Shown: piece by piece, positions 712 to 10,229 of the stretch
Position numbering within the stretch: position 1 is the stretch's first letter
Layout of the letters: each line of letters opens with the position of its first letter
Made by a program: the position numbers and the translations under genes
The notes under the pieces: model-generated
Told to the model about the DNA's origin: nothing
The model's input: the letters and a program-made list of their open reading frames with translations, nothing else
The model's database searches: none
Source: an uncultured Actinomycetes bacterium
GTDB taxonomy: Bacteria > Actinomycetota > Thermoleophilia > Solirubrobacterales > Solirubrobacteraceae
Reading direction: 5' to 3'
DNA: 10,229 nucleotides
Assembly: GCA_937888775.1 (NCBI GenBank)
Contig: CALAQT010000252.1
Span: 1 to 10,229 of the forward strand

Positions 712-729
712 GTGTGATCTTCATCACAC
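712..729. promoter_or_regulatory. CRP-type cAMP receptor binding site
   Basis: The palindrome has 7-base arms GTGTGAT and ATCACAC around CTTC. It contains the exact CRP/Rv3676-type consensus TGTGA-N6-TCACA at 713-728. It lies between the riboswitch-controlled minus gene and the plus-strand acyltransferase gene, centred about 35 bases before the preferred GTG start at 756. A CRP/FNR-family regulator could act on either promoter. On the minus strand, TTGCAG (745-740) and GAAGAT (722-717) are 17 bases apart and would form a weak promoter overlapped by the box. The direction of regulation cannot be read from sequence. Confidence 0.7.
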
Positions 730-743
730 GGTCTAAACCCTGC

Positions 744-749
744 AAGAAT
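744..749 (+). promoter_or_regulatory. Possible -10 element for a leaderless acyltransferase mRNA
   Basis: AAGAAT matches four of six positions of TATAAT and ends 6 bases before the GTG at 756. No ribosome binding site precedes that GTG. This would place the transcript start on or next to the start codon. There is no clear -35; the CRP-type box lies where an activator could substitute for one. Weak evidence on its own. Confidence 0.3.
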
Positions 750-755
750 CCTCCG

Positions 756-2195
756 GTGGCCAACACCGATCGCCTGACCGGCCTCGACAGCTCCTTCCTT
801 CACCTCGAGCGCGACTCGGCTCACATGCACGTCGCCGGCTGCATGATCTTCAAGGGGGCGCCCCCCACTTACGACGAGCTCGTCGCTCAGATCGTCTCCC
901 GGCTGCACCTGGTGCCGCGCTACCGCCAGCGGCTGGCCTTCGTCCCGTTAAGCCAGGGACGTCCGGTGTGGGTAGACGATCCACACTTCAACGCCAAGTT
1001 CCACGTGCGCCACACCGCCCTCCCCCGGCCCGGAGACGAGCGCAAGCTCGCCCGGCTGGCCGGCCGGGTGTTCTCGCAGGCGCTTGACCGCTCGCGACCG
1101 CTGTGGGAACTGTGGCTGGTCGAGGGCGTAGCCGACGATCGATTCGCGCTGCTGTCAAAGACCCATCACGCGTTGGTGGACGGCATCTCCGGCGTGGACA
1201 TCGCCACGGTGCTGTTCGATTCCTCGCCCGATCCGATGCCCGTCGCGGCACCCGAGCGCGAGTGGATCCCCCGGCCGCTGCCCACCGACGTGCAGCTGCT
1301 CGCCGACGCGCTACTGGAGCGGGCCACCGTACCGGCGGAGATCGCCCGTGGGGTGCGCGCCACCGTGCGCCGCCCGCGCCAGATCGCATCCCAAGTGGGG
1401 AGCGCGCTGGCCGGCGTCGGCGCGATGGCCTGGGCCGGCCTGAAGGCGGCTCCCGCCAGCCCGTTCAACGTCCGCATCGGACCCCACCGCCGCTTCACCT
1501 GGGTGCGCAGCGAGCTGGCGCAGTTCAAGGCGGTCAAGAACGCGCTCGGCGGCACGGTCAACGACGCCGTGCTGACCGTCGTGGCGGGCGCGCTGGGTCG
1601 CTACATGCGCCTGCACGGCGAGGACGTCGAGGGCGTCGTGCTCAAGGCGATGGTGCCCGTATCGGTCCGCGCCGACGTCGAACGGGGCGCGCTGGGCAAC
1701 CGTGTGGCGGCGATGTGGGCTCCACTGCCGGTGGGAGTAACCGACCCCGTCGCGCGGATGCTGACGATCAGCCACGAGATGGAGGGCGTCAAGGACTCAG
1801 GTCAGGCGGTCGGCGCCCAGGTGCTGACCGAGCTCTCAGGCTTTGCGCCGCCGACGATCATGGCCCAGGCCGCCCGGCTGCAGGCGCGTCAGCGCCTGTT
1901 CAACGTCGTGGTCACCAACGTGCCGGGTCCCCAATTCCCGCTTTACATGCTCGGCCGTCAGCTCGAGGCGATGTTCCCGATGGTCCCGCTGGCGGAGAAC
2001 ACCGCGCTGGGGATCGCGATCATGAGCTACAACGGCCAGCTCAACTTCGGTCTGAACGCCGACTACGACGCGCTAGAGGATCTCGACGTGCTCGCCGACG
2101 AGCTGCGCGCCTCGATCGAGGAGCTCGTGGCCGCCGCCGGCGAGGGCTCGGTCCCCCGCCCGGCGAGCTCGCGGGCGTTGCGCATCGCCGAGTGA
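756..2195 (+). CDS. Wax ester synthase/diacylglycerol acyltransferase (WS/DGAT)
   Basis: The product transfers the acyl group of acyl-CoA to diacylglycerol or a long-chain alcohol, making triacylglycerol or wax ester at the inner membrane surface and lipid droplets. The N-terminus DRLTGLDSSFLHLE is typical of the family. The catalytic HHxxxDG is complete: H137, H138, D142, G143, inside KTHHALVDGISG. The second family block, NDAVLTVVAGAL, begins at N269, and the C-terminal block has TNVPGP followed by a PLAENTALGIAIMSYNGQLNFGL stretch. At 479 residues the length is normal. I chose GTG 756 because family members begin just before this LxxLD segment. The in-frame GTG at 714 would sit inside the CRP-type palindrome and add 14 atypical residues. 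Substrate preference cannot be read. A membrane protein gene follows 34 bases downstream and may be co-transcribed. Confidence 0.92.
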   Translation: MANTDRLTGLDSSFLHLERDSAHMHVAGCMIFKGAPPTYDELVAQIVSRLHLVPRYRQRLAFVPLSQGRPVWVDDPHFNAKFHVRHTALPRPGDERKLARLAGRVFSQALDRSRPLWELWLVEGVADDRFALLSKTHHALVDGISGVDIATVLFDSSPDPMPVAAPEREWIPRPLPTDVQLLADALLERATVPAEIARGVRATVRRPRQIASQVGSALAGVGAMAWAGLKAAPASPFNVRIGPHRRFTWVRSELAQFKAVKNALGGTVNDAVLTVVAGALGRYMRLHGEDVEGVVLKAMVPVSVRADVERGALGNRVAAMWAPLPVGVTDPVARMLTISHEMEGVKDSGQAVGAQVLTELSGFAPPTIMAQAARLQARQRLFNVVVTNVPGPQFPLYMLGRQLEAMFPMVPLAENTALGIAIMSYNGQLNFGLNADYDALEDLDVLADELRASIEELVAAAGEGSVPRPASSRALRIAE

Positions 2196-2229
2196 ACTAG
2201 TGGCCGCCGCCGTAGCCGGCCTTCGCTGA

Positions 2230-2793
2230 ATGGGCCGAGCTCGGGTCATCCGGCTGCTCGAGCGCAGCGCCATTGTCCTGGTCTCGCTGGCCCTGTCGAT
2301 CGGCGTGATCGCCCTTTTGTCAGGCGGACTGCTGGCCGGGCACGACCAGCCCGGGGTGTCGGGCACCGGCAGCGGACCCGGCGTGGCGTACCGTGACCTC
2401 GGCGACGCACGGCTGGCCCCGGGTCAGCGCCGGCCGGTATACGACTCTCAACCACCGACCAGCGGTCCCCATCTCCCCGTGACCGTCAGGCGCGACGAGA
2501 CCGAGCTCTCGGACGACCAGCTGCTGCAGGCGCTGGCGGTCGGCGATGTCGTGGTCATGTACGGAACTCGCAAGGCGCCCGCAGGTCTGCGACAGCTGGC
2601 GTTGGAGATAGCGGCGCCCTTCACGCCCGCGCTGGCCGCGGTCGGTCAGGCGGTGATCCTCGCCCGCCGCCCCGGCACCTTGGGACTGATCGCAGTGGCG
2701 TGGACGCACCTGGTCGGTGTTAGGGCGCCCGACGATCCGCTCCTGCGCGAGTTCATCCAGGCGTACCTGGACCGGGGCGCGCCCGGACGCTAG
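2230..2793 (+). CDS. Membrane-anchored DUF3105-like protein
   Basis: This is a 187-residue protein of unknown function. Residues 12-36 form one hydrophobic helix after a short basic start, so the rest is probably outside the membrane. Residues 71-81 (YDSQPPTSGPH) match the hallmark of DUF3105, and the C-terminal part (AWTH at 157-160, then PLLREFIQAYLDRGAP) fits the end of that domain. The family's usual HSLEHG-type histidine motif before the central strand is absent: the corresponding place reads LLQALAVGDVVVMY, so the central histidine is lost. The ATG is preceded directly by an in-frame TGA, which fixes the upstream limit; no good ribosome binding site is seen. It follows the acyltransferase gene by 34 bases. 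Family assignment is likely; function is unknown. Confidence 0.78.
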   Translation: MGRARVIRLLERSAIVLVSLALSIGVIALLSGGLLAGHDQPGVSGTGSGPGVAYRDLGDARLAPGQRRPVYDSQPPTSGPHLPVTVRRDETELSDDQLLQALAVGDVVVMYGTRKAPAGLRQLALEIAAPFTPALAAVGQAVILARRPGTLGLIAVAWTHLVGVRAPDDPLLREFIQAYLDRGAPGR

Positions 2794-2805
2794 GTGCGCT
2801 CGCTC

Positions 2806-2811
2806 CATAAT
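2806..2811 (+). promoter_or_regulatory. -10 element, probable leaderless nadE promoter
   Basis: CATAAT (five of six to TATAAT) ends 7 bases before the nadE ATG at 2819, in a 25-base spacer with no ribosome binding site. This spacing puts transcription start at or next to the ATG. No convincing -35 is visible, as is common for actinobacterial leaderless promoters. Confidence 0.5.
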
Positions 2812-2818
2812 TGATGCG

Positions 2819-4549
2819 ATGCCCGCGCCATTGAAGCTCGCCCTGTGCCAGATCAACCCCACGGTCGGGGACATCGCCGGCAACGAAGGCCAGATCCTGC
2901 GCTGGATGGGCGACGCGCGCAACGCGGGCGCCCAGCTGGTGCTGTTCCCGGAGCTGGCGGTGACCGGTTACCCGCCCGAGGATCTGCTGCTCAAGGAGCA
3001 CTTCCTCGCCGATGCTCGCCGGTCGCTGGAGCGGATTGCCGCGCAGACACAAGGAATCGTCGTGCTGGTCGGCTTCCCCGAGCACGCCGAGGACGTTTAC
3101 AACGCGTGTGCAGTACTGGCCGAAGGATCCGTGCGCGCGATCTACCGCAAGGTGTTCCTGCCCAACTACGGCGTGTTCGACGAGCAGCGCTACTTCCAGT
3201 CCGGTACCGGCGGCGCGGTGATCGAGCTCGGAGAGACGACGGTCGGGGTCACGGTCTGCGAGGACATCTGGGAGCCCGGGCCCCCGGCCTCCGACGAGGC
3301 GCTGGCCGGAGCCACCCTGCTGGTCAATATCTCCGCCTCGCCCTACCACGTCGGCAAGGGATCCGAGCGCGAGCGGATGCTCGTCCAGCGCGCCCGTGAC
3401 AACGTCGCGATGGTCGCCTTCTGCAACCTCGTCGGCGGCCAGGACGAACTCGTCTTCGACGGCTACTCGCTGGTGATCGACCACGAGGGCGAGGTGCTGG
3501 CGCGCGGAAAGCAGTTCGCCGAGGAGCTGATCCTGGCGACGATCGACCCCGACGCCGCTCGTGGCGTGCGGCTGCGTGATCCGCGCCACCGCCCGGTCAA
3601 CCGGCGCGCGCAGCCCGCCGTGGCGCGTCTGGGGCGCGTCCAGCTGCCGGTTTGCGCGGCCGAGACCGGCGGCCTGGGAGGACCCGTGCACGAACCGCTG
3701 GGGCGATGTGCCGAGGTCCACAGCGCGTTGGTGCTCGGGCTGCGCGACTACGTCGAGAAGAACGGCTTTGCCCATGTGGTAATCGGGCTCTCAGGCGGCA
3801 TCGATTCGGCGCTCGTGGCCGTGATAGCGGTTGACGCGCTCGGCGCCGAGCGCGTTTCGGTGGTCGTGATGCCGTCTCCGTATTCCTCGCCGGAGACCCA
3901 GCAGGACGCCCGCGATCTGGCGGCCAACCTCGGCGTGAGCGCCCGCGAGCTGCCGATCGCCGAGACGATGCATTCCTACGAACGCACGCTGGCCGGAGTG
4001 TTTGCCGGTCGCGAGGCAGATCTGACCGAGGAGAACCTGCAAGCCCGGATCCGGGGCAACCTGCTAATGGCGCTGTCGAACAAGTTCGGCTGGCTGGTCC
4101 TGACCACCGGCAACAAGTCTGAGATGGCAGTCGGCTACTCGACCCTCTACGGCGACAGCGCCGGCGGCTTTGCGGTGATCAAGGACTGTCCCAAGACGCT
4201 CGTATACGAGCTCGCGCGTCATCGCAACACACTCGCCGACGCCCCGGTGATCCCGGCATCGATCCTCGACCGCGCCCCCAGCGCCGAGCTTCGCCCTGGC
4301 CAGCGCGACGCCGACTCGTTGCCGCCCTATGAGGTGCTGGATCCGATCCTGGACGGCTACATCGAGGACGACCTCGGCCGCGAGGCGCTGATTCTGCGCG
4401 GGTTCTCAGAGACCGACGTCGAGCACGTGATCGCGCTGGTCGACCGCGCCGAGTACAAACGCCGCCAGGCCCCGCCGGGGATCAAGATCACTACCCGCGC
4501 GTTTGGACGCGACCGGCGCGTACCGATCACCAATCGCTACGGAGGCTAA
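2819..4549 (+). CDS. nadE: Glutamine-dependent NAD+ synthetase
   Basis: The enzyme catalyses the last step of NAD+ synthesis: ATP-dependent amidation of nicotinic acid adenine dinucleotide, using ammonia released from glutamine. Residues 5-250 form a nitrilase-type glutaminase with the full triad: E45 (FPELAVTGYPPEDLL), K111 (YRKVFLPNYGVFDE) and C147 (VTVCEDIW). Residues about 295-576 form the synthetase, with the SGGIDS pyrophosphate loop at 325-330, ENLQARIRGNLLMALSN at about 405-421 and TTGNKSEMAVGYSTLYGD at about 429-446. At 576 residues it matches the shorter bacterial form, not the roughly 680-residue mycobacterial form. I chose ATG 2819 (MPAPLKLALCQINP), because beginning further upstream would overlap the preceding gene and add 34 residues unlike the family. 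It is complete and ends in a short convergent spacer against the thioesterase gene. Confidence 0.95.
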   Translation: MPAPLKLALCQINPTVGDIAGNEGQILRWMGDARNAGAQLVLFPELAVTGYPPEDLLLKEHFLADARRSLERIAAQTQGIVVLVGFPEHAEDVYNACAVLAEGSVRAIYRKVFLPNYGVFDEQRYFQSGTGGAVIELGETTVGVTVCEDIWEPGPPASDEALAGATLLVNISASPYHVGKGSERERMLVQRARDNVAMVAFCNLVGGQDELVFDGYSLVIDHEGEVLARGKQFAEELILATIDPDAARGVRLRDPRHRPVNRRAQPAVARLGRVQLPVCAAETGGLGGPVHEPLGRCAEVHSALVLGLRDYVEKNGFAHVVIGLSGGIDSALVAVIAVDALGAERVSVVVMPSPYSSPETQQDARDLAANLGVSARELPIAETMHSYERTLAGVFAGREADLTEENLQARIRGNLLMALSNKFGWLVLTTGNKSEMAVGYSTLYGDSAGGFAVIKDCPKTLVYELARHRNTLADAPVIPASILDRAPSAELRPGQRDADSLPPYEVLDPILDGYIEDDLGREALILRGFSETDVEHVIALVDRAEYKRRQAPPGIKITTRAFGRDRRVPITNRYGG

Positions 4550-4577
4550 CGGGCGCCCGCGGGTCCAGCCCGGCCGG

Positions 4578-4994
4578 TTAGGGCCGCGGCAGGTCTCTGA
4601 CCGCGACGGTGACGCGCGACAGGACGCACAGCCGGCCGTCGTCGTCGGTGAGCTCCACCTCCCACACCCACGTCGTGCGCCCGCGATGCTTGACCTTGGC
4701 AGCTCCGAAGATCGTTCCCTGGGTGATCGGGCGCAGGAAGCTCGTCTGGTTTGAGAGGCCGACCGCGAGCTTGCCGTTCGGCATTACCTCCAGCGCGGTG
4801 CCCGTGGAGGCCAGGCTCTCCGACATCGCCGCATATACTCCCCCATGGATCAGCCCACCCGGCTGCTTGAGCTCGTCGCGCACCTGCACCTGACCGCGCA
4901 GGCAATCGGACTCAACGTTGGTGATGTCAAGCCCGTAGAGACCGTCAAAGCCGACCTTGTGGTTGAACGGAAGTTCGATCGACACGCTCGGCAC
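4578..4994 (-). CDS. PaaI/MenI-like hotdog-fold acyl-CoA thioesterase
   Basis: A 138-residue single hotdog domain, expected to hydrolyse acyl-CoA or aryl-CoA thioesters in the cytoplasm as a tetramer. The signature reads GLIHGGVYAAMSESLAS: H50-G51-G52 and E59, the position of the catalytic acid in the YdiI/MenI and 4-hydroxybenzoyl-CoA thioesterase group. The strand after it (TSFLRPITQGTIFGAAKVKHRGRTTWVWEVEL) is also typical. The substrate is not predictable: menaquinone synthesis (DHNA-CoA), phenylacetate or general CoA recycling are all possible. The start is uncertain. GTG 4994 gives MPSVSIELPF, but GTG 4985 (residue 4) lies 7 bases after a TATCGT -10-like element and would make a leaderless mRNA. 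It diverges from the membrane regulator gene at 5078. Confidence 0.88.
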   Translation of the reverse strand: MPSVSIELPFNHKVGFDGLYGLDITNVESDCLRGQVQVRDELKQPGGLIHGGVYAAMSESLASTGTALEVMPNGKLAVGLSNQTSFLRPITQGTIFGAAKVKHRGRTTWVWEVELTDDDGRLCVLSRVTVAVRDLPRP

Positions 4995-4998
4995 GATA
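4993..4998 (-). promoter_or_regulatory. -10-like element for the thioesterase gene
   Basis: The minus strand reads TATCGT (4998-4993), fitting the TANNNT pattern, followed by 7 bases and then the GTG at 4985. This suggests a leaderless transcript starting at residue 4 of the longer reading. It overlaps the upstream GTG at 4994, so both cannot serve together. No -35 stands out. Confidence 0.35.
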
Positions 4999-5063
4999 GT
5001 CGTTTGCCGAGCCGGGGCGTGGCCGGTGACGGGGGGTCGGAGTCATTCTGGCGCCCGCTCATT

Positions 5064-5069
5064 TACGCT
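5064..5069 (+). promoter_or_regulatory. -10-like element for the membrane sigma4 protein gene
   Basis: TACGCT fits TANNNT and ends 8 bases before the ATG at 5078. There is no ribosome binding site between them, so a leaderless or near-leaderless mRNA is likely. No clear -35 is seen in the 83-base divergent spacer. Confidence 0.4.
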
Positions 5070-5077
5070 AGGTACCG

Positions 5078-6115
5078 ATGGCCTCTCTGGACAGCCTCCC
5101 CGCCGACCAGCGCGCGGTACTCGCCCTCGTCCTGGGGCGCGGGCGCAGCTACGACGAGATCGCCCGGCTGCTCTCGATCGACCGAGCCGCCGTGCGAGCG
5201 CGAGCGTTGGCCGCCTTCGATTCCCTGGGGCCGCAGACGCGCGTCCCCGCCGAGCGTCGCGCGCTGATCACCGACTACCTGCTGGGCCAGCTCCCGCCAC
5301 GGGTGGCCGAGCAAACGCGGGTGCGCCTCGGCGAGTCGGCCAGCGAGCGCGCCTGGGCCAGGGTCCTGTCCTCTGAGCTCGGGCCGCTGGCCAGCAGTCC
5401 GCTGCCCGACATCTCGCTTGACGGCTACACAGCCAGCTCGCCCGCCCCGGCCACCGATGCGAGCTCACGGGCGCCGGTCGCTGCCATGCCTCCGCATTCC
5501 GAGCCCGAGCCCGAAGACGACCGCGACCGGCTCGAACCTGAAGCGGACAAGGCACGCAACGTGTCGCGCCTGGGCGGCGCCGTGCTGATTGGTATCGCGG
5601 TCGTTGGGGTGATCGCGGTGGTGGTCATCGTGATCAGCCTCGCCAGCTCCGGCTCGGGCAAGAGTTCGCACACGTCTTCGGTGGCGAGCGTCTCCAGCAC
5701 GACCTCGACGACAACAACGACGACGACGAGCGCCGCCACTACAAGCTCGGGAGCGGCGCAGGTCGTCGCTCAGATCAACCTGACGCCCCTCAACCCGGCC
5801 AGCAAGGCGGCCGGGATCGCCGAGGTGCTCAAGGAGGGCACCACCGACGGAATCGCGATCGTGGCCCAGAAGGTGGCGCCCAACACCACCAAGCCGGCCA
5901 ACGCGTACGCGGTGTGGCTGTACAACTCGCCGACCGACGCGCACATCCTCGGCTTCGTCAATCCGGGCGTGGGGTCCAGCGGACGGCTGTCAACCGCCGG
6001 CGGCCTACCGACCAACGCGTCGCACTACAAGGAGCTGATCGTCACGCTGGAGACGTCGGCCACCCCGAAGACGCCGGGAACGATCATCCTCCAGGGCGCG
6101 CTCAACGGCGTCTAG
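5078..6115 (+). CDS. Membrane protein: sigma4-like HTH, anti-sigma-like segment, TM, RskA-like outer domain
   Basis: This 345-residue protein has no name I recognise. Residues 1-50 (LPADQRAVLALVLGRG, then YDEIARLLSIDRAAVRARALAAFDSL) look like sigma-70 region 4, the helix-turn-helix that normally binds the -35 element. Residues 62-100 (ITDYLLGQLPPRVAEQTRVRL and on to SSEL) resemble the helical part of zinc anti-sigma domains, but no Cys or His ligands are present. Residues 110-160 are a Pro/acidic linker. Residues 165-189 are one strongly hydrophobic transmembrane helix, followed by a Ser/Thr stalk (194-226). Residues 228-345 form an outer domain with AYAVWLYNSP, GFVNPG, ELIVTLE and PGTIILQG, like the C-terminal domain of RskA-type anti-sigma factors. 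So the inside binds DNA or polymerase and the outside senses, by inference. No sigma region 2 is present. The ends are clear; the role is not. Confidence 0.8.
   Translation: MASLDSLPADQRAVLALVLGRGRSYDEIARLLSIDRAAVRARALAAFDSLGPQTRVPAERRALITDYLLGQLPPRVAEQTRVRLGESASERAWARVLSSELGPLASSPLPDISLDGYTASSPAPATDASSRAPVAAMPPHSEPEPEDDRDRLEPEADKARNVSRLGGAVLIGIAVVGVIAVVVIVISLASSGSGKSSHTSSVASVSSTTSTTTTTTTSAATTSSGAAQVVAQINLTPLNPASKAAGIAEVLKEGTTDGIAIVAQKVAPNTTKPANAYAVWLYNSPTDAHILGFVNPGVGSSGRLSTAGGLPTNASHYKELIVTLETSATPKTPGTIILQGALNGV
5699..5731 (+). repeat. Imperfect ACG/ACA triplet run encoding a Thr/Ser stalk
   Basis: A run of ACG, ACA and TCG codons encodes Thr and Ser around residues 207-218 of the membrane protein. 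It lies just after the transmembrane helix, where a flexible, possibly glycosylated outer stalk is expected. Triplet slippage could change stalk length without shifting frame. Confidence 0.6.
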
Positions 6116-6145
6116 AGCACGGCGCCGCGCGGCGGCGCCCCGCTC
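6115..6145. terminator. GC-rich convergent hairpin, likely bidirectional terminator
   Basis: GGCGCCG (6121-6127) pairs with CGGCGCC (6133-6139) around a 5-base loop. Past a 2x2 internal loop, GAGC (6115-6118) pairs with GCTC (6142-6145). It fills the 28-base spacer between two convergent stop codons. There is no U-tract on either strand, so it would be a U-less actinobacterial-type terminator or only an RNA-stabilising end. Confidence 0.5.
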
Positions 6146-6578
6146 AGTCGCAGATCTGCTCCAGTCCGCCCAGCGCGTCGTCGAGCTTGGCCGCGGTCGC
6201 CCGGCGCAGCATGAAGCCGCCGGTCTTGGAATAGCCGCGCAGCTTCTGGCGCTGTTCGATCGTGATCTCGGTCCCGCCCGGCACGCTCGCCAGCCTCACC
6301 TCTACGATCGACTCGTTGAGCACCCGCGCAAACGGCGTGCCGGCGAGCTCCTGCTCCCAGGCGCGCACCCAGGGTGCAGTCGACTCCACCACCCGGAAGT
6401 CCACCCGCACCGGGCGGCCCCGCTTGGTGGTGAAGACCTGGGTGAAGCGATCTGCCTGCACGCCCTCCATGCGCGTGATCCCAGGCCACCAGCGCGGCAT
6501 GTGGTGAGGATCCTCCAGCACCTCCCAGACACGTTGGGGGGAGGCCGCGACGGTGCGGGTTCGGCGAGCGGTCGCCAC
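6144..6578 (-). CDS. SRPBCC (polyketide cyclase/START-like) family protein
   Basis: A 144-residue single-domain protein. It begins with the family pattern TRTVAASPQRVWEVLEDP, followed by MPRWWPGI, a set of beta strands (FTQVFTTKRG, VRVDFRVVES, EQELAGTPFA, ESIVEVRLASVPGGTEITIEQ) and a long C-terminal helix (MLRRATAAKLDDALGGLEQI). This is the helix-grip fold that forms a deep hydrophobic pocket; members bind or transform lipids, polyketides or other hydrophobic ligands, and the ligand here cannot be told. There is no signal peptide or membrane segment, so it is cytosolic. The GTG start lies 4 bases after the apt stop codon, so it is almost certainly translated from the same mRNA as apt. No functional link to purine salvage is evident. 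Confidence 0.82.
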   Translation of the reverse strand: MATARRTRTVAASPQRVWEVLEDPHHMPRWWPGITRMEGVQADRFTQVFTTKRGRPVRVDFRVVESTAPWVRAWEQELAGTPFARVLNESIVEVRLASVPGGTEITIEQRQKLRGYSKTGGFMLRRATAAKLDDALGGLEQICD

Positions 6579-6582
6579 GATC

Positions 6583-7110
6583 TCAGCTGTCGTAGTCGAT
6601 CAACGAGTGCACCTCGTGGCCGGCCAGTCGCTGGCGGCCGCCCAGGAAGCTCAGCTCCACCAGGAAGGCACAGCCGACGATCTCGGCACCGAGATTGCCC
6701 ACCAGCTCGCAGAGCGCGCCCGCCGTCCCCCCGGTGGCGAGCAGATCGTCGTGGACCAGCACGCGCGCGCCGCCGGCCAGCGCGTCGGCATGGACCTCCA
6801 GCGCATCGATTCCGTACTCGAGCGCGTACTGGGCGCTGACGGTCTGGTGCGGCAGCTTGCCGGGCTTGCGGGCCGGAACGAACCCGGCGCCCAGCTCGCG
6901 GGCGAGCGCCGCACCGAGAATGAACCCGCGCGCTTCGGCGGCAACCACCAGATCGACCGCCTGCGGGGCGATCATCTGCGCCAGGCCCGACACGGCGTTG
7001 TCGAGCGCCTCGGCGTCGAGTAGCAGCGGCGTGATGTCCTTGAAGACAATCCCCGGCTGGGGAAAATCTGGGATGTCGCGGACCAGGGCCCGCAGATCAA
7101 CCGAGCTCAC
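6583..7110 (-). CDS. apt: Adenine phosphoribosyltransferase
   Basis: The enzyme converts adenine and PRPP to AMP and pyrophosphate in purine salvage, in the cytosol. All landmarks are present: the N-terminal VRDIPDFPQPGIVFKDITPLL, the adenine-site region VVAAEARGFILGAALA (56-70), the flexible-loop segment PARKPGKLP (79-87) and the PRPP-binding motif VLVHDDLLATGGTA (117-130) with D121 and D122. At 175 residues it has the usual length. The GTG at 7110 gives the correct N-terminus, though no good ribosome binding site precedes it. It lies 45 bases downstream of the ftsR-like gene, across a perfect palindrome, and is followed by the SRPBCC gene 4 bases on. Confidence 0.95.
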   Translation of the reverse strand: MSSVDLRALVRDIPDFPQPGIVFKDITPLLLDAEALDNAVSGLAQMIAPQAVDLVVAAEARGFILGAALARELGAGFVPARKPGKLPHQTVSAQYALEYGIDALEVHADALAGGARVLVHDDLLATGGTAGALCELVGNLGAEIVGCAFLVELSFLGGRQRLAGHEVHSLIDYDS

Positions 7111-7132
7111 GCCGCGCTGGAACCGGAGCTAA

Positions 7133-7155
7133 TGCCGTGATTCGAAATCACGGCA
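7133..7155. repeat. Perfect palindrome between ftsR-like and apt genes
   Basis: Ten-base arms TGCCGTGATT and AATCACGGCA flank a 3-base centre (CGA). It begins directly after the stop codon of the MerR-family gene and ends 22 bases before the apt start. As RNA it would form a stable hairpin, but on the minus strand only two T residues follow, so it is not a standard Rho-independent terminator. It could be a U-less terminator, an mRNA processing or stability element, or an operator for apt. Confidence 0.7.
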
Positions 7156-7923
7156 CTAAGTGGCGATCTTGCGCAGGTCGCGGATCAGCAACAGGTGCTT
7201 GAGGTGGGTTGTGACCGACGCCAGGTTCTCCAGCGCCTCGATCGCCTCCTTGCGACGCTCGGGGTTGCGCGAGCGCAGCGCCGGGGCCAGGATGCTCTGC
7301 AGCAGCTGCGCCTCACGGTCGGCGGAGCTCCGGAACACGCGCAGGTTGCGCCCGCCGACGCCGTAGCGAGCGAGCTCGGACACCGCCCGGACGATCTCCC
7401 GCTCGGTCTCGTCGAAATACCGGGCCCCGGCTCGGGTCTCGCCCTTGATCACGCCGAACTCGACGAGCTCGCGCACGAGCTTGGGATCGGCCCCGGTCTC
7501 CTCGACGACGTCGTCGAGCGAATACAGAGCGCCGGGCTCGCGGACCGCCACCATCGCGCGGCGCACCCCCCCGCGGCGATCAGTGGGAGGAGCAGTCACC
7601 TCCGGTTCCGAGCGCCCGCCGGCCAACTCCTGACGGATCACTCGCAGCGGCAGGAACTCATCGCGCTGCAGGCGCAGGATCGTCCGCAACCGCTGGATGT
7701 CGGTCTGGGTATAGAGCCGGTAGCCACCCTGGGTGCGCCGCGGCGTCAGCAGCTTCTGATCCTCCAGATAGCGAATCTTGGAGATCGAGATGTCAGGGAA
7801 CTCCTGGACCAGCGCCTTGCACACCGCGCCGATCGTGACCGCCTTCTGCCGCGGGCGATCCTCGCCTGAGTCAGGCGGATCCGGCAGCTCGACCGGTGGG
7901 TTGCCCGTCTCGGTGCCGGCCAT
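7156..7923 (-). CDS. MerR-family transcription regulator, FtsR/Rv1828-like
   Basis: A 255-residue protein with an N-terminal MerR-type winged helix at about residues 29-100: TIGAVCKALVQEFPDISISKIRYLE, then LTPRRTQGGYRLYTQTDIQRLR and RDEFLPLRVIRQEL. The opening with a spaced FPDISISKIR is characteristic of the Rv1828/FtsR branch and not of metal-sensing MerR proteins. No cysteine cluster is seen at the C-terminus. Residues 125-250 form a helical effector-like domain containing a second MerR-like segment (YSLDDVVEETGADPKLVRELVEFGVI). FtsR of Corynebacterium glutamicum activates ftsZ and lies beside odhI; the same neighbour order holds here. I chose the ATG whose A overlaps the TGA stop of the FHA gene (TGATG); the TTG one codon earlier is the alternative. 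The target genes are inferred only. Confidence 0.87.
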   Translation of the reverse strand: MAGTETGNPPVELPDPPDSGEDRPRQKAVTIGAVCKALVQEFPDISISKIRYLEDQKLLTPRRTQGGYRLYTQTDIQRLRTILRLQRDEFLPLRVIRQELAGGRSEPEVTAPPTDRRGGVRRAMVAVREPGALYSLDDVVEETGADPKLVRELVEFGVIKGETRAGARYFDETEREIVRAVSELARYGVGGRNLRVFRSSADREAQLLQSILAPALRSRNPERRKEAIEALENLASVTTHLKHLLLIRDLRKIAT

Positions 7924-8390
7924 CAACTGCTCAGGAACGCAAGCTTGTATTTGCCGATCTGGAGCTCATCGCCGTCGGCTAAGCGATGGGACTCGATCCG
8001 GCTCCGATTGACGTAGGTGCCGTTCAACGAACCGCAGTCGTCGAGGTAATAGTCGCTGCCGCGACGGACGATCATCGCGTGATCGCGTGACACGGTGACG
8101 TCGTCGAGGAATATGTCTGAGTCGGGACGACGGCCGACCGTGAGCCGGTCGGATTCCAGCGCAAAGCTCTCACCGGCCCGCCCCCCCCCGGCCCGGATCA
8201 CCAGCGCCGCCCCCCGGGCGACCATATCCTCGAGCTCTACCAATTCCAGCTCGCCGGTCTCGCCGACCTTGTAGGACGCTGTCGTCGCGCCCGGCGGAGG
8301 CTCGGATTGGGCCAGGAATGCACCGCATCGCTGGCAGTAGTTGGCGCCGTCTGCATTGGCGAAGCCGCACTCTGGACAGTGCTGGGCCAC
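7923..8390 (-). CDS. Zinc-ribbon plus FHA protein, GarA/OdhI-like
   Basis: A 155-residue protein. Residues 5-22 form a zinc ribbon, with C5-x2-C8 and C19-x2-C22. Residues 61-155 form a forkhead-associated domain that binds phosphothreonine, with GRRPDSDIFLDDVTVSRDH (G86, R87, S101, H104) and GSLNGTYVNR (N123, T125), then LADGDELQIGKYKLAFLS. This resembles GarA/OdhI very closely. Those proteins bind and inhibit 2-oxoglutarate dehydrogenase and act on glutamate enzymes, until Ser/Thr kinases phosphorylate an N-terminal ETT motif that the FHA domain then folds onto. Here the matching linker has T36-T37 in GATTASYKVGE, without the acidic residue directly before the threonines. GarA itself has no zinc ribbon. 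The GTG start lies 11 bases after the rsiG-like stop, and the stop overlaps the next start. Confidence 0.9.
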   Translation of the reverse strand: MAQHCPECGFANADGANYCQRCGAFLAQSEPPPGATTASYKVGETGELELVELEDMVARGAALVIRAGGGRAGESFALESDRLTVGRRPDSDIFLDDVTVSRDHAMIVRRGSDYYLDDCGSLNGTYVNRSRIESHRLADGDELQIGKYKLAFLSS

Positions 8391-8401
8391 CGAGACGGGC
8401 G

Positions 8402-8659
8402 CTAGTCGAGGCCCGGGCCCGGCGGCACGCGTCCGGCCAGGATGTCGGTCAGCTGCTGCACGTCGGCGCCCGAGATGATCAGCTCGCCGCTCTCGTCCTT
8501 CTTGCGCAGGCGGTTGACGAGTTCGGCGCGCAGGATGTCGATCTTCCCGTGCATGATCCGCCGCTTGTAGGAGATCTCCATCTCCTCCTCGGTGAGCTGC
8601 TTGATGAGGTCCTTCAGCTCCTGATCCGTCAGTGAGCCGAGGTCGGGAAACGTTTCCAT
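8402..8659 (-). CDS. RsiG-like small coiled-coil protein with a cyclic-di-GMP motif
   Basis: An 85-residue protein with no membrane segment. Residues 10-22 (LTDQELKDLIKQL) and 23-54 are helical, the second being a long, charged coiled-coil helix; a short C-terminal segment follows. The second helix carries E26-x3-S30-x2-R33-x3-H37-x3-D41. This is the E(X)3S(X)2R(X)3Q(X)3D cyclic-di-GMP motif of RsiG with His in place of Gln. RsiG in Streptomyces is an anti-sigma factor that holds the sporulation sigma factor WhiG when loaded with cyclic-di-GMP and has two motif copies. Single-copy forms in Rubrobacter pair as homodimers, and one copy is seen here. The ATG is well supported by GGAGGAG 8 bases upstream. 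No sigma factor gene is in the window, so the partner is unknown; a non-sigma role is possible. Confidence 0.85.
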   Translation of the reverse strand: METFPDLGSLTDQELKDLIKQLTEEEMEISYKRRIMHGKIDILRAELVNRLRKKDESGELIISGADVQQLTDILAGRVPPGPGLD

Positions 8660-8667
8660 GCGAATAA

Positions 8668-8674
8668 CTCCTCC
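8668..8674 (-). promoter_or_regulatory. Strong ribosome binding site of the rsiG-like gene
   Basis: The minus strand reads GGAGGAG, 8 bases before the ATG at 8659. It is one of only two strong Shine-Dalgarno sequences in the window and fixes the start. Confidence 0.8.
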
Positions 8675-8712
8675 CCCGTCCGCCGGGGTTGATATGGCGA
8701 AGGGCTTGCGCG

Positions 8713-8740
8713 AGTATAACTGGCGGGCTCAGAGGGTCAA
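8713..8740 (-). promoter_or_regulatory. Housekeeping-type promoter of the rsiG-garA-ftsR operon
   Basis: On the minus strand, TTGACC (8740-8735) and TATACT (8718-8713) are separated by 16 bases, matching the sigma-A/HrdB -35 and -10 elements at five of six positions each. Transcription would start near 8706, leaving a leader of about 45 bases before the rsiG-like ATG. It is the best-matching promoter in the window and lies in the 121-base gap after pgsA, so the three downstream genes have their own start. Confidence 0.75.
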
Positions 8741-8751
8741 GCTGAGCTTGA
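8737..8751. repeat. 15-base inverted repeat overlapping the -35 element
   Basis: Arms TCAAGCT and AGCTTGA flank a single central base. The left arm shares four bases with the TTGACC -35 element of the rsiG-like promoter. A one-base loop makes an RNA hairpin unlikely, so the repeat fits a dimeric repressor or activator site on DNA better. The regulator is unknown. Confidence 0.5.
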
Positions 8752-8780
8752 GGGTACCCCAGGCGTCGCCGGGACGATCC

Positions 8781-9389
8781 TCAGGCGCGCTTGCGGACCT
8801 CGTGCACCCCGCGCCTAACGTACAGCACCGTCGCCAGCAGCGAAAGGGCCACCCCCACGTAGAGCAGCGCCAGCGCGAGCCCATGGACACCCGCCATGGC
8901 AAAGAACGGCGCTCCCATCGTGGGCGCCACGCCGAGCCTTCCGGCCCAGTTGATCTTCAGCTCCACCCCGCGCTTGAGCCCGTAGCGGCTCAGACCGAGC
9001 ATGAACACTTCCCGCGCAACCACGATCACCAGCGCCCAGCGCGGCAGCAGCTCGAACACGAACGCGACCAACATGCCTGAGATCACCAGCAGCCGGTCGA
9101 CGATCGGATCGAGCATCGCGCCCAGGCGGCTGTACTGCCCGGTGAGCCGCGCCGTGAAGCCGTCCAGGTAGTCGGCCCAGCCGATCACCGCGAACAGCAC
9201 CACGGCCACCGTGTCGCGTCCGTGGGGGCTGGAGAGCGCCAGCGCCAGGAACACCGGAATTCCCAGCAGCCGCGCGTAGCCGATCGCGTTGGGGATCGTC
9301 CACGGGTTCAGCGGCCGATCTGACAGGGTCGCCTCGGGCGGCGGGCCCGAGCGGTCTAGGCCGAACAGGCGGCGCTTGGTGATTGGCAA
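8781..9389 (-). CDS. pgsA: CDP-diacylglycerol--glycerol-3-phosphate phosphatidyltransferase family
   Basis: An integral membrane enzyme of the CDP-alcohol phosphatidyltransferase family, about 202 residues. The full catalytic signature D-x2-DG-x2-AR-x8-G-x3-D-x3-D is present: D73, D76-G77, A80-R81, G90, D94 and D98. It is flanked by about five to six hydrophobic segments (for example 42-53, 61-72, 101-113, 118-130, 157-190). PNAIGYARLLGIPVFLALA at the start is typical of PgsA, which makes phosphatidylglycerol phosphate; actinobacteria also have phosphatidylinositol-phosphate and cardiolipin synthases of the same fold, so the alcohol substrate is probable, not certain. The start is unclear: no ATG or GTG lies in frame between the proS stop and the conserved part, and I use TTG 9389, which sits in a hairpin. 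A reading opening further upstream would be proS read in another frame. Confidence 0.86.
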   Translation of the reverse strand: MPITKRRLFGLDRSGPPPEATLSDRPLNPWTIPNAIGYARLLGIPVFLALALSSPHGRDTVAVVLFAVIGWADYLDGFTARLTGQYSRLGAMLDPIVDRLLVISGMLVAFVFELLPRWALVIVVAREVFMLGLSRYGLKRGVELKINWAGRLGVAPTMGAPFFAMAGVHGLALALLYVGVALSLLATVLYVRRGVHEVRKRA

Positions 9390-9409
9390 AAGGCCACCAG
9401 GCCTTTGCC
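9385..9409 (-). promoter_or_regulatory. Hairpin between proS and pgsA, covering the proposed pgsA start
   Basis: Minus-strand arms GGCAAAGGCC (9409-9400) and GGCCTTTTGCC (9395-9385) pair around TGGT with one bulged T. It begins 2 bases after the proS stop codon. The T-run is within the 3' arm and not after it, so a standard terminator is doubtful. The 3' arm contains the TTG proposed as the pgsA start, so the fold could limit pgsA translation. Confidence 0.5.
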
Positions 9410-9411
9410 GC

Positions 9412-10229
9412 TCAGGGGAGCCCTCGCCAGAGCTCCGCGACGGCCTGTGCCGCATCGGGCAGCGGCACCGTCTGCGACCGGCGCCCGCGGCGGACCTGCA
9501 CCTCGAGCTCACCGGCGGCGATCGTCCGGCGTCCGACCGTGAGGCGCAGCGGGCAGCCGAGCAGCTCGGCGTCGGTGAACTTCTCCCCCGGACCCGCGTC
9601 GCGGTCGTCGTAGAGGGTCTGCAGGCCGGCTTGCTGGAGCTCGCGGTAGAGGCGGTCGGCGAGCTCGCGCTCCGGGCTGGCGGGCTTTCCCAGCACGACC
9701 AGTTCGACGTCGAACGGCGCGATCGCCCGCGGCCACGAGATTCCCTGCTCATCGGCGTACTGCTCGACGGAGGCGGCAGCGGCGCGGGCCGGACCGAACC
9801 CGTAGGAGCCCATCCACACCAGCCGGGATTTGCCCGACTCATCCAGATAGGTTGCCCCGAGCGGCTCCGAATAGCGTGTGCCCAGCTTGAAGATGTTGCC
9901 GATCTCGATCGCCGGCTCGATCCGCACGACGCTCCCGTGGACCGTGTCGCCCGCCGTGACCAGTCGCACGTCGACGGTCTCATAGGCGAAGTCGCGGCCG
10001 GGCTCGACGGAGCGCAGGTGCGCGTCGGGCTTGTTGGCACCGGTCACGTAGCCCCCTGGTGGCACCGCGGCGTCGAGCAGGATCGGGAGCTGCGCGCCCA
10101 CGGGGCCGATGTACCCCGGCGGTCCCAGCCGCTCGGCGACCTCGTCCGGGCGCGCGGGGCGAAACTCGCCCCCTAGCGCGGTCCGCAGCTTGATCTCGTT
10201 GACGCGATGGTCGCCGCGCACCATCACGA
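9412..10229 (-). CDS. proS: Prolyl-tRNA synthetase, C-terminal part (5' end cut off)
   Basis: The visible 272 or so codons are the C-terminal half of a bacterial-type ProRS, which charges tRNA-Pro. The first part (VRGDHRVNEIKLRTALG, then RPARPDEVAERLGPPGYIGPVG) is the end of the inserted YbaK-like editing domain that hydrolyses Ala-tRNA-Pro. IEIGNIFKLGTRYSEPLGATYLDESGK returns to the class II core, and MGSYGFGPARAAAASVEQ is motif 3, with its conserved Arg kept but PA replacing the more usual VS or VG before it. The last 90 residues form the anticodon-binding domain (VELVVLGKPASPE, GLQTLYDDRDAGPGEKFTDAELLGCPLRLTVG). The frame is open to the right edge, so the true start lies beyond the window and the GTG/ATG codons near the edge are internal. 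It is followed by pgsA. Confidence 0.95.
   Translation of the reverse strand, partial: VMVRGDHRVNEIKLRTALGGEFRPARPDEVAERLGPPGYIGPVGAQLPILLDAAVPPGGYVTGANKPDAHLRSVEPGRDFAYETVDVRLVTAGDTVHGSVVRIEPAIEIGNIFKLGTRYSEPLGATYLDESGKSRLVWMGSYGFGPARAAAASVEQYADEQGISWPRAIAPFDVELVVLGKPASPERELADRLYRELQQAGLQTLYDDRDAGPGEKFTDAELLGCPLRLTVGRRTIAAGELEVQVRRGRRSQTVPLPDAAQAVAELWRGLP

Follow-up and report, generated by a model that had tools for sequence, protein, structure and literature searches.

In a stretch of DNA of 10,229 nucleotides, here called the window, one open reading frame joins a piece of a sigma factor to pieces resembling a membrane-bound anti-sigma factor. The question raised by this locus is how such a chain arose and what it may do. 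The reading frame (5078..6115, + strand, ATG start, stop codon included), supported by its translation and its homologs, encodes 345 amino acids comprising, in this order, a sigma-4 HTH, an anti-sigma-like segment, a linker, a TM helix, a Ser/Thr stalk, and a beta-sandwich of the RskA_C type. Of 7994 candidates scored in a protein database, 2342 were homologs at E<=1e-3. Among the homologs listed with an organism given, this was Solirubrobacteraceae bacterium; product names, where given, were mostly 'hypothetical protein' or sigma factor / sigma region 4 protein. The HTH, the anti-sigma segment and the TM helix were retained in 120/120 of the best 120 of these homologs, and no internal stop occurred in five full-length orthologs. 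A random reading frame is rejected by the number of homologs together with the kept synteny.

Structures were predicted with AF2 for the whole protein, using the homolog P0001 which has one extra residue in the stalk (numbering is +1 thereafter), and for residues 1-112, using 11 homologs. The P0001 model reached a mean pLDDT of 75.6 with linker and stalk disordered; the model of residues 1-112 reached a mean pLDDT of 94.3 and a pTM of 0.86 and consists of six helices. Neither model had a Foldseek match reaching E 0.001. Conservation was analyzed in an alignment of 29 homologs hand-picked from the best 120 of the 2342.

A sequence-only reading of this DNA had assigned residues 1-50 (5078..5227, +) to a HTH of the sigma-70 region 4 type, and this assignment was confirmed. 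Two Pfam models scored over their cut-offs, Sigma70_r4_2 (PF08281; 31.8 bits, cut-off 25.7, residues 3-43) and Sigma70_r4 (PF04545; 29.0 bits, cut-off 24.1, residues 4-50), and AF2 placed helices at 9-21, 25-32, and 36-50. The same reading had proposed structure prediction and a fold search for residues 1-110; the 1-112 model puts the HTH on region 4 of sigmaE (2h27_D) over 46 columns at 1.0 A (Foldseek prob 0.98, E 1.0). Region 4 of E. coli sigmaE was also the top sequence match among solved structures, with E 0.2 for the single protein and E 0.0046 for a 29-row profile. Many columns of the HTH are invariant in the 29-homolog alignment, and residue R40 of the recognition helix is Arg in 120/120 near and 33/34 far aligned members (153/154 in total). 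In an ungapped alignment R40 lines up with sigmaE R171 (E. coli numbering), a -35 DNA contact. The near-invariance of R40 speaks for a HTH that may bind DNA; the decoy that the sequence-only reading had offered as an alternative is possible as well. Residues 1-52 carry a net charge of +1 only; furthermore, in PhyR the sigma fold is described as kept as a protein decoy, so that the HTH fold alone is no proof of DNA binding (PMC8103513).

Sigma region 2 is absent, as had been claimed from the letters alone. PF04542 was not found in the 345-amino-acid protein by a Pfam scan at E<=1. Upstream of the ATG only two codons are open; therefore, no in-frame sigma-2 region is possible there, and a missed upstream sigma-2 region is rejected. 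A complete sigma factor is likewise rejected for this protein.

The HTH is followed by a putative anti-sigma-domain (ASD) remnant, a metal-less three-helix segment H1-H3 (residues 58-104; 5249..5389, +), identified by hhalign, zf-HC2 matches in homologs, and AF2. Helices were confidently predicted at 58-68, 74-86, and 88-104, and the segment carries the signature DYLLGQ...R.WA...L, with DYLLGQ at residues 66-71. The positions of the zinc ligands Hx3Cx2C are occupied by R83, S87, and E90, and the 345-amino-acid protein contains no Cys at all. The Hx3Cx2C motif occurred in 0/157 proteins and a Cys at either Cys position in 0 of 147 aligned members; His was found at the His position in 17/120 near and 6/28 far members, which looks like a vestige of the ligand. 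The zf-HC2 model (PF13490) matched 4/29 homologs at E<=0.1 (best 5.1e-4). In P0022, which has 15 extra N-terminal residues, it reached 13.5 bits (cut-off 22.2) at residues 76-104, corresponding to 61-89 in the 345-amino-acid protein.

A profile of 20 members of the segment was compared by hhalign with 14 Hx3Cx2C segments of related genomes, i.e. 14/16 zf-HC2-type motif rows, without L047 and a chance frame in L040. The score was 25.9 (P 6.6e-5). In 300 column shuffles the maximum was 9.44; this was a repeat with a different seed, and the earlier set of 300 shuffles for the same comparison held one unexplained value of 126.6. In 67 natural decoys taken from neighbour proteins the maximum was 13.6, windows with <3 usable rows being skipped. 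The claim of a metal-less anti-sigma-like segment is supported by the three AF2 helices, the hhalign score, and the R/S/E residues at the ligand positions, and the similarity to the sigma-4-binding bundle H1-H3 of class I anti-sigma factors was found with the sequence profile. At the level of folds the picture is mixed: the three helices were predicted with high confidence, and the fold matches listed (50 of 337 and 50 of 463) contained no anti-sigma chain and included, among others, sigma-4 and LuxR-type HTH chains. The profile of the middle segment alone retrieved no anti-sigma chain from PDB sequences either. LuxR/GerE-type chains of ~60 residues align over residues 1 to about 106 of the 1-112 model, and these ranges suggest that helix 88-104 may take the place of the GerE-type fourth helix, where it would not cover the recognition helix.

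The metal-less state is not exceptional in itself: in one survey of class I anti-sigma domains the zinc motif was present in ~56% and lacking in about 44% (PMC7406223). In class I anti-sigma factors, H1-H3 are described to bind sigma-4 and H4 to bind sigma-2 (PMC7406223). Between residue 104 and the TM helix AF2 predicted no fourth, sigma-2-binding helix, a result that rests on predicted disorder in a stretch of mostly low confidence. In these models the lost parts would be matching, H1-H3 being kept, H4 not predicted, and sigma-2 gone. A Pfam scan of 10 neighbouring proteins (a PgsA-like ORF was left out) revealed no sigma-factor gene and thus no adjoining cognate ECF.

The ASD remnant is connected to the membrane by a low-complexity Pro/acidic cytoplasmic linker (residues 105-162; 5390..5563, +), recognized in the alignment and by a pLDDT <50 over most of 118-167, and by a juxtamembrane S-R-x-G-G motif (residues 163-167; 5564..5578, +) of which S163, G166, and G167 are invariant and R164 is nearly so in the 29 homologs. 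The single TM helix postulated earlier was predicted by AF2 at residues 167-189 (5576..5644, +), its N-terminus being placed inside by hydropathy and charge bias. Exactly one hydrophobic segment was present in 120/120 near and 36/37 far proteins. Lys and Arg were in excess on the N-terminal side of this helix in 103/120 near proteins (15 had equal numbers on both sides and 2 had fewer there) and in 35/36 far ones; therefore, the HTH lies inside. A Ser/Thr-rich extracytoplasmic stalk (residues 190-227; 5645..5758, +) was assigned from sequence, alignment, and low pLDDT at 190-224. Across the 29 homologs, linker and stalk are of freely varying length.

The outer domain (residues about 228-345; 5759..6112, +) is a RskA_C-like beta-sandwich with a Y-x-V-W-L signature and is strongly conserved in the same alignment. 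In the P0001 model it has eight strands from residue 229 on, with pLDDT values of 72-93 per ten-residue block from residue 231. The earlier proposal that it resembles RskA was upheld in family members and could not be reproduced for the 345-amino-acid protein itself, in which PF10099 (RskA_C) was not detected by a Pfam scan at E<=1. In five related genomes, two orthologs and one paralog exceeded the curated cut-off of 29.4 (39.0, 29.6, and 34.2 bits), two orthologs remained under it, and the Conexibacter ortholog was unlisted; P0108 reached 30.3 bits, and 7/29 homologs matched at E<=0.1. These profile matches indicate an RskA_C identity for the family, not for the 345-amino-acid member itself. 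The fold matches of the outer domain were Cu,Zn SODs; the domain holds two His only. A genome search also revealed a TM protein (L032:949-1968, +) with RskA_C just under the cut-off at 28.5 bits and, by eye, a HTH-like N-terminus and no ASD motif; the protein scan gave no Pfam match at E<=0.1. From this protein, the HTH-TM-RskA_C layout may represent a wider class.

Searching genome contigs yielded 14 loci, mostly from Solirubrobacterales MAGs and Conexibacter sp. DBS9H8. The gene of L012 is full length, though partial in tblastn; in L014, from a Pseudonocardiales MAG, the match is confined to the HTH. With a 112-position N-terminal model, 133/151 relatives of Conexibacter sp. DBS9H8 matched at E<=1e-5; in five of the 151 the presence of the gene had been established before. 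The match was strong in 120/151, including a gene truncated at a contig end (G063) and another distributed over two frames (G123), and in 13 of the 133 the best E was weaker than 1e-13; genomes lacking a match may have draft gaps or diverged genes. Exactly one match was counted by eye in 103/133 genomes. Conexibacter sp. DBS9H8 has a diverged second copy with full architecture elsewhere in its genome (L020:1483-2574, -).

The surroundings of the gene are also conserved. By Pfam, its neighbours are WS_DGAT, DUF3105, NAD synthase, 4HBT, Polyketide_cyc2 (SRPBCC), Pribosyltran (Apt), MerR, FHA, and RsiG. Immediate partners are a divergent 4HBT (hotdog) thioesterase (4578..4994, -; 58.2 bits) and a convergent Polyketide_cyc2 (SRPBCC) protein (6144..6578, -; 57.8 bits), both conserved by synteny and with no proven functional link; Apt and MerR are likewise convergent neighbours. 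Among L001-L013 the divergent 4HBT gene was found in 12/13 (the sequence of L011 begins within the gene), SRPBCC in 11/13, Apt in 10/13, and NadE in 3/13, some contigs ending early. Twenty further loci, picked for diversity among the matches of the N-terminal model, were cut out and contained the fused gene in 20/20, 4HBT in 19/20, and MerR in 18/20 cases. The block at 714-10227 (WS/DGAT, DUF3105, NadE, 4HBT, SRPBCC, Apt, MerR, FHA, RsiG, PgsA-like, ProS) is largely kept over very diverged genomes, NadE and Apt being its variable members.

Six loci (L095-L100), selected because they matched the HTH only, encode proteins in which the HTH is directly followed by a Pro-rich linker, the TM helix, and the outer domain, the anti-sigma segment being absent. 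Within the limits of the cut loci their neighbours are unchanged, except that 4HBT was not found in L097. The L095 protein has 1992 relatives at E<=1e-3 among 7998 scored; in the 120 of them that were listed, the DYLLGQ-like motif was absent from 120/120 and R40 was kept in 0.99. A tree was calculated from up to three neighbour proteins per locus for the 39/40 loci with enough sequence; the NadE row of L113 (31% match) was dropped. The six ASD-less loci form one clade (0.995) adjoining ASD-bearing loci (0.991), and midpoint rooting, in a tree that has no outgroup, nests this clade inside the ASD-bearing loci. A single loss of the ASD is the simplest account of this midpoint-rooted, outgroup-free tree. 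The absence of the ASD in L095-L100 coincides with two substitutions in the HTH, L19 to Ala and A43 to Val, which may reflect either repacking of the core or a lost interface, probably as one event.

A clade of same-locus orthologs without the ASD segment that has kept HTH, TM helix, and sensor is new, and it provides our strongest discriminating result: the core of the protein consists of HTH, TM helix, and sensor, and the ASD is dispensable. Because the ASD-less clade keeps these three parts, we regard the HTH as the probable output; the ASD remnant would serve as an accessory cis-latch at best. A HTH held by the adjacent segment, as suggested by the sequence-only reading, is not supported as a general mechanism, given that in L095-L100 and in 120/120 listed relatives of the L095 protein the segment is missing and the HTH present.

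Furthermore, the order of the domains points to a possible origin. In related genomes an ECF gene has a separate RskA-type gene next to it, in the order of the domains here (L023, L026, L028, L029); in L023 the ECF gene at 505-1164 is followed by the RskA-type gene at 1186-1884, and in L029 the two overlap (599-1180 and 1177-1905). The domain order sigma4-ASD-TM-RskA_C equals the order of an ECF-rskA operon. The SigK-RskA genes of M. tuberculosis presumably have this order, too. The fused gene might have originated by collapse of an ECF sigma gene and the RskA-type anti-sigma gene downstream of it into a single frame, with loss of sigma-2. No evolutionary intermediate between an ECF/RskA pair and the fused protein was found.

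HTH, TM helix, and outer domain in one chain, as seen by Pfam, AF2, and hydropathy, correspond to the layout of a membrane one-component regulator. ToxR/CadC-type membrane one-component regulators likewise have an N-terminal HTH, one TM helix, and an outer sensor; they differ by an OmpR-type winged helix rather than sigma-4 and by having no anti-sigma remnant. The membrane-tethered one-component regulator proposed earlier is the most economical reading of this chain, and that the protein is a sigma-4-derived regulator of this kind, which arose from a collapsed ECF/RskA operon without sigma-2, appears to us almost an even chance. As an activator or a repressor, the HTH would bind a -35-like DNA site or meet RNA polymerase at promoters. 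The outer domain would sense an envelope condition via stalk and TM helix, and the signal would pass by a conformational change or by stepwise proteolysis freeing the cytoplasmic part. The ASD remnant would pack on its own HTH as a dispensable structural support or cis-latch. Features counting against this reading are the +1 charge of residues 1-52, the missing operator (see below), the undetected RskA_C in the 345-amino-acid protein, the lack of anti-sigma chains among the fold matches listed and in the PDB search with the middle segment, and the PhyR example of a sigma fold serving as decoy. The more specific idea that in Solirubrobacterales or more widely a tethered switch from a collapsed operon uses sigma-4 as a stand-alone, cis-latched promoter-binding domain, with the latch dropped in one clade, is possible and in our opinion doubtful.

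Fusions of sigma and anti-sigma parts have been described, namely ECF48, ECF52, ECF53, and IutY/ECF243 (PMC8999054; PMC5826349). By these examples from PMC8999054, the earlier premise that sigma and membrane anti-sigma factors are always separate does not hold. Like ECF48/52/53 (e.g. SCO4117) and IutY, the protein studied here has sigma-4, then an anti-sigma-like segment and a TM helix in one chain; SCO4117 is described with an outer domain as well, and ECF48/52/53 stem from Actinobacteria (PMC8999054, PMC5826349). However, ECF48/52/53 and IutY are described with a complete sigma core, and ECF48/52/53 with a zinc finger, whereas neither sigma-2 nor zinc ligands are present here. With SigK-RskA the protein has in common an outer domain of the RskA_C type, as detected in its family, and an ASD independent of zinc (PMC7406223); SigK-RskA, in contrast, consists of two proteins with a complete sigma factor and an ASD whose fourth helix serves sigma-2. 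Sigma-4 without sigma-2 is found in SigO of B. subtilis, and PhyR has a sigma-like domain without being a true sigma factor (both PMC8103513). Unlike PhyR, described there as a response regulator with a degenerate promoter-binding region, the present protein has kept the Arg of the recognition helix. Fusions with a complete sigma factor, the sigma-4-only SigO, and the mimic PhyR are already known (PMC8999054, PMC5826349, PMC8103513); in the open-licence literature searched, no description of a sigma-4-only fusion with a TM helix and RskA_C was recognized.

The RsiG-like gene of the conserved block would allow another role. It is located 2.3 kb downstream of the fused gene (8402-8659, -) and encodes 85 amino acids matching PF22802 with 67.8 bits (cut-off 27). 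By eye, its product shows a single c-di-GMP motif, E(X)3S(X)2R(X)3[Q/H](X)3D, as described for single-motif WhiG anti-sigma factors of Thermoleophilia (PMC8325347). The gene is present in 9/13 near loci and in 3/20 cut loci, the majority of the latter stopping short of it, and its product is a candidate partner of the sigma-4 domain; as a candidate for a protein-partner role this conserved gene counts against a regulator. Like PhyR in solution, the sigma-4-like domain or the ASD remnant could act on other proteins at the membrane as a sigma mimic or partner switch, trapping ECF sigma-4 domains or unbound anti-sigma factors, be it the RskA type or the RsiG-like protein. We consider this rather unlikely. 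Sigma-4 and ASD surfaces do occur in one chain, separate ECF/RskA pairs exist in related genomes, the RsiG-like gene belongs to the same block, sigma mimicry has a precedent in PhyR (PMC8103513), and one ortholog without the ASD, L097, shows a weak match to the sigma-like model of PhyR (E 0.033). However, promoter- and core-binding regions of PhyR are reported as degenerate (PMC8103513), whereas R40 is near-invariant here; the ASD is missing in one clade and hence no universal effector, and the known partner of RsiG is the sigma factor WhiG (PMC8325347).

If the gene were kept for an envelope or cell-wall function of its outer domain, the HTH would merely be a folding or docking module. Such a role agrees with the strong conservation of this domain, with its Cu,Zn-SOD-like sandwich which has two His only and resembles generic binding domains, and with the freely varying lengths of linker and stalk; it is distinctly improbable in view of the invariant HTH columns and the recognition-helix Arg, kept over the whole range including the ASD-less orthologs. 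Very unlikely indeed is a membrane-held half of a split sigma factor, in which the protein would supply sigma-4 to a separate sigma-2 protein. The 345-amino-acid protein does contain sigma-4 alone, and SigO (sigma-4) and RsoA (sigma-2) of Bacillus subtilis are a real precedent (PMC8103513). SigO/RsoA, in contrast, has its sigma-2 partner, whereas the present protein is membrane-anchored and no sigma-2 protein was found among the 10 neighbours scanned. Moreover, the sigma-2 matches listed for Conexibacter G004 and judged by eye mostly have their own region 4: 22 of 26 have a same-length-frame PF08281 just downstream, three without PF08281 are probably of the housekeeping type with a region 4 fitting PF04545, and one looks like a frame-broken ECF gene. 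An ECF-like gene of Conexibacter whose frame is seemingly lost after sigma-2 was noted at L115:693-1127 (-).

If the tethered regulator is real, sigma region 4 can be put to new use as a DNA-binding domain that works independently and is held at the membrane, and one-component regulators can evolve from sigma/anti-sigma pairs. Same-locus orthologs with and without the anti-sigma segment form a natural contrast which makes cis-inhibition directly testable.

Additionally, we have analyzed the region upstream of the gene. The promoter scan found none, and besides a -10-like element no conserved operator was seen in 12 upstream regions. All 12 share this element, which reads TACNCT in 10, TACGAT in one, and TAGTCT in one; it is located at 5064-5069 in the window, with counterparts in L001-L010 and L013. 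The distance to the ATG is 8-11 bases in 11/12 regions and 21 bases in L004. A spacing of 8-11 bases leaves little room for a ribosome site and, judged from these sequences, the fused gene may be transcribed without a leader.
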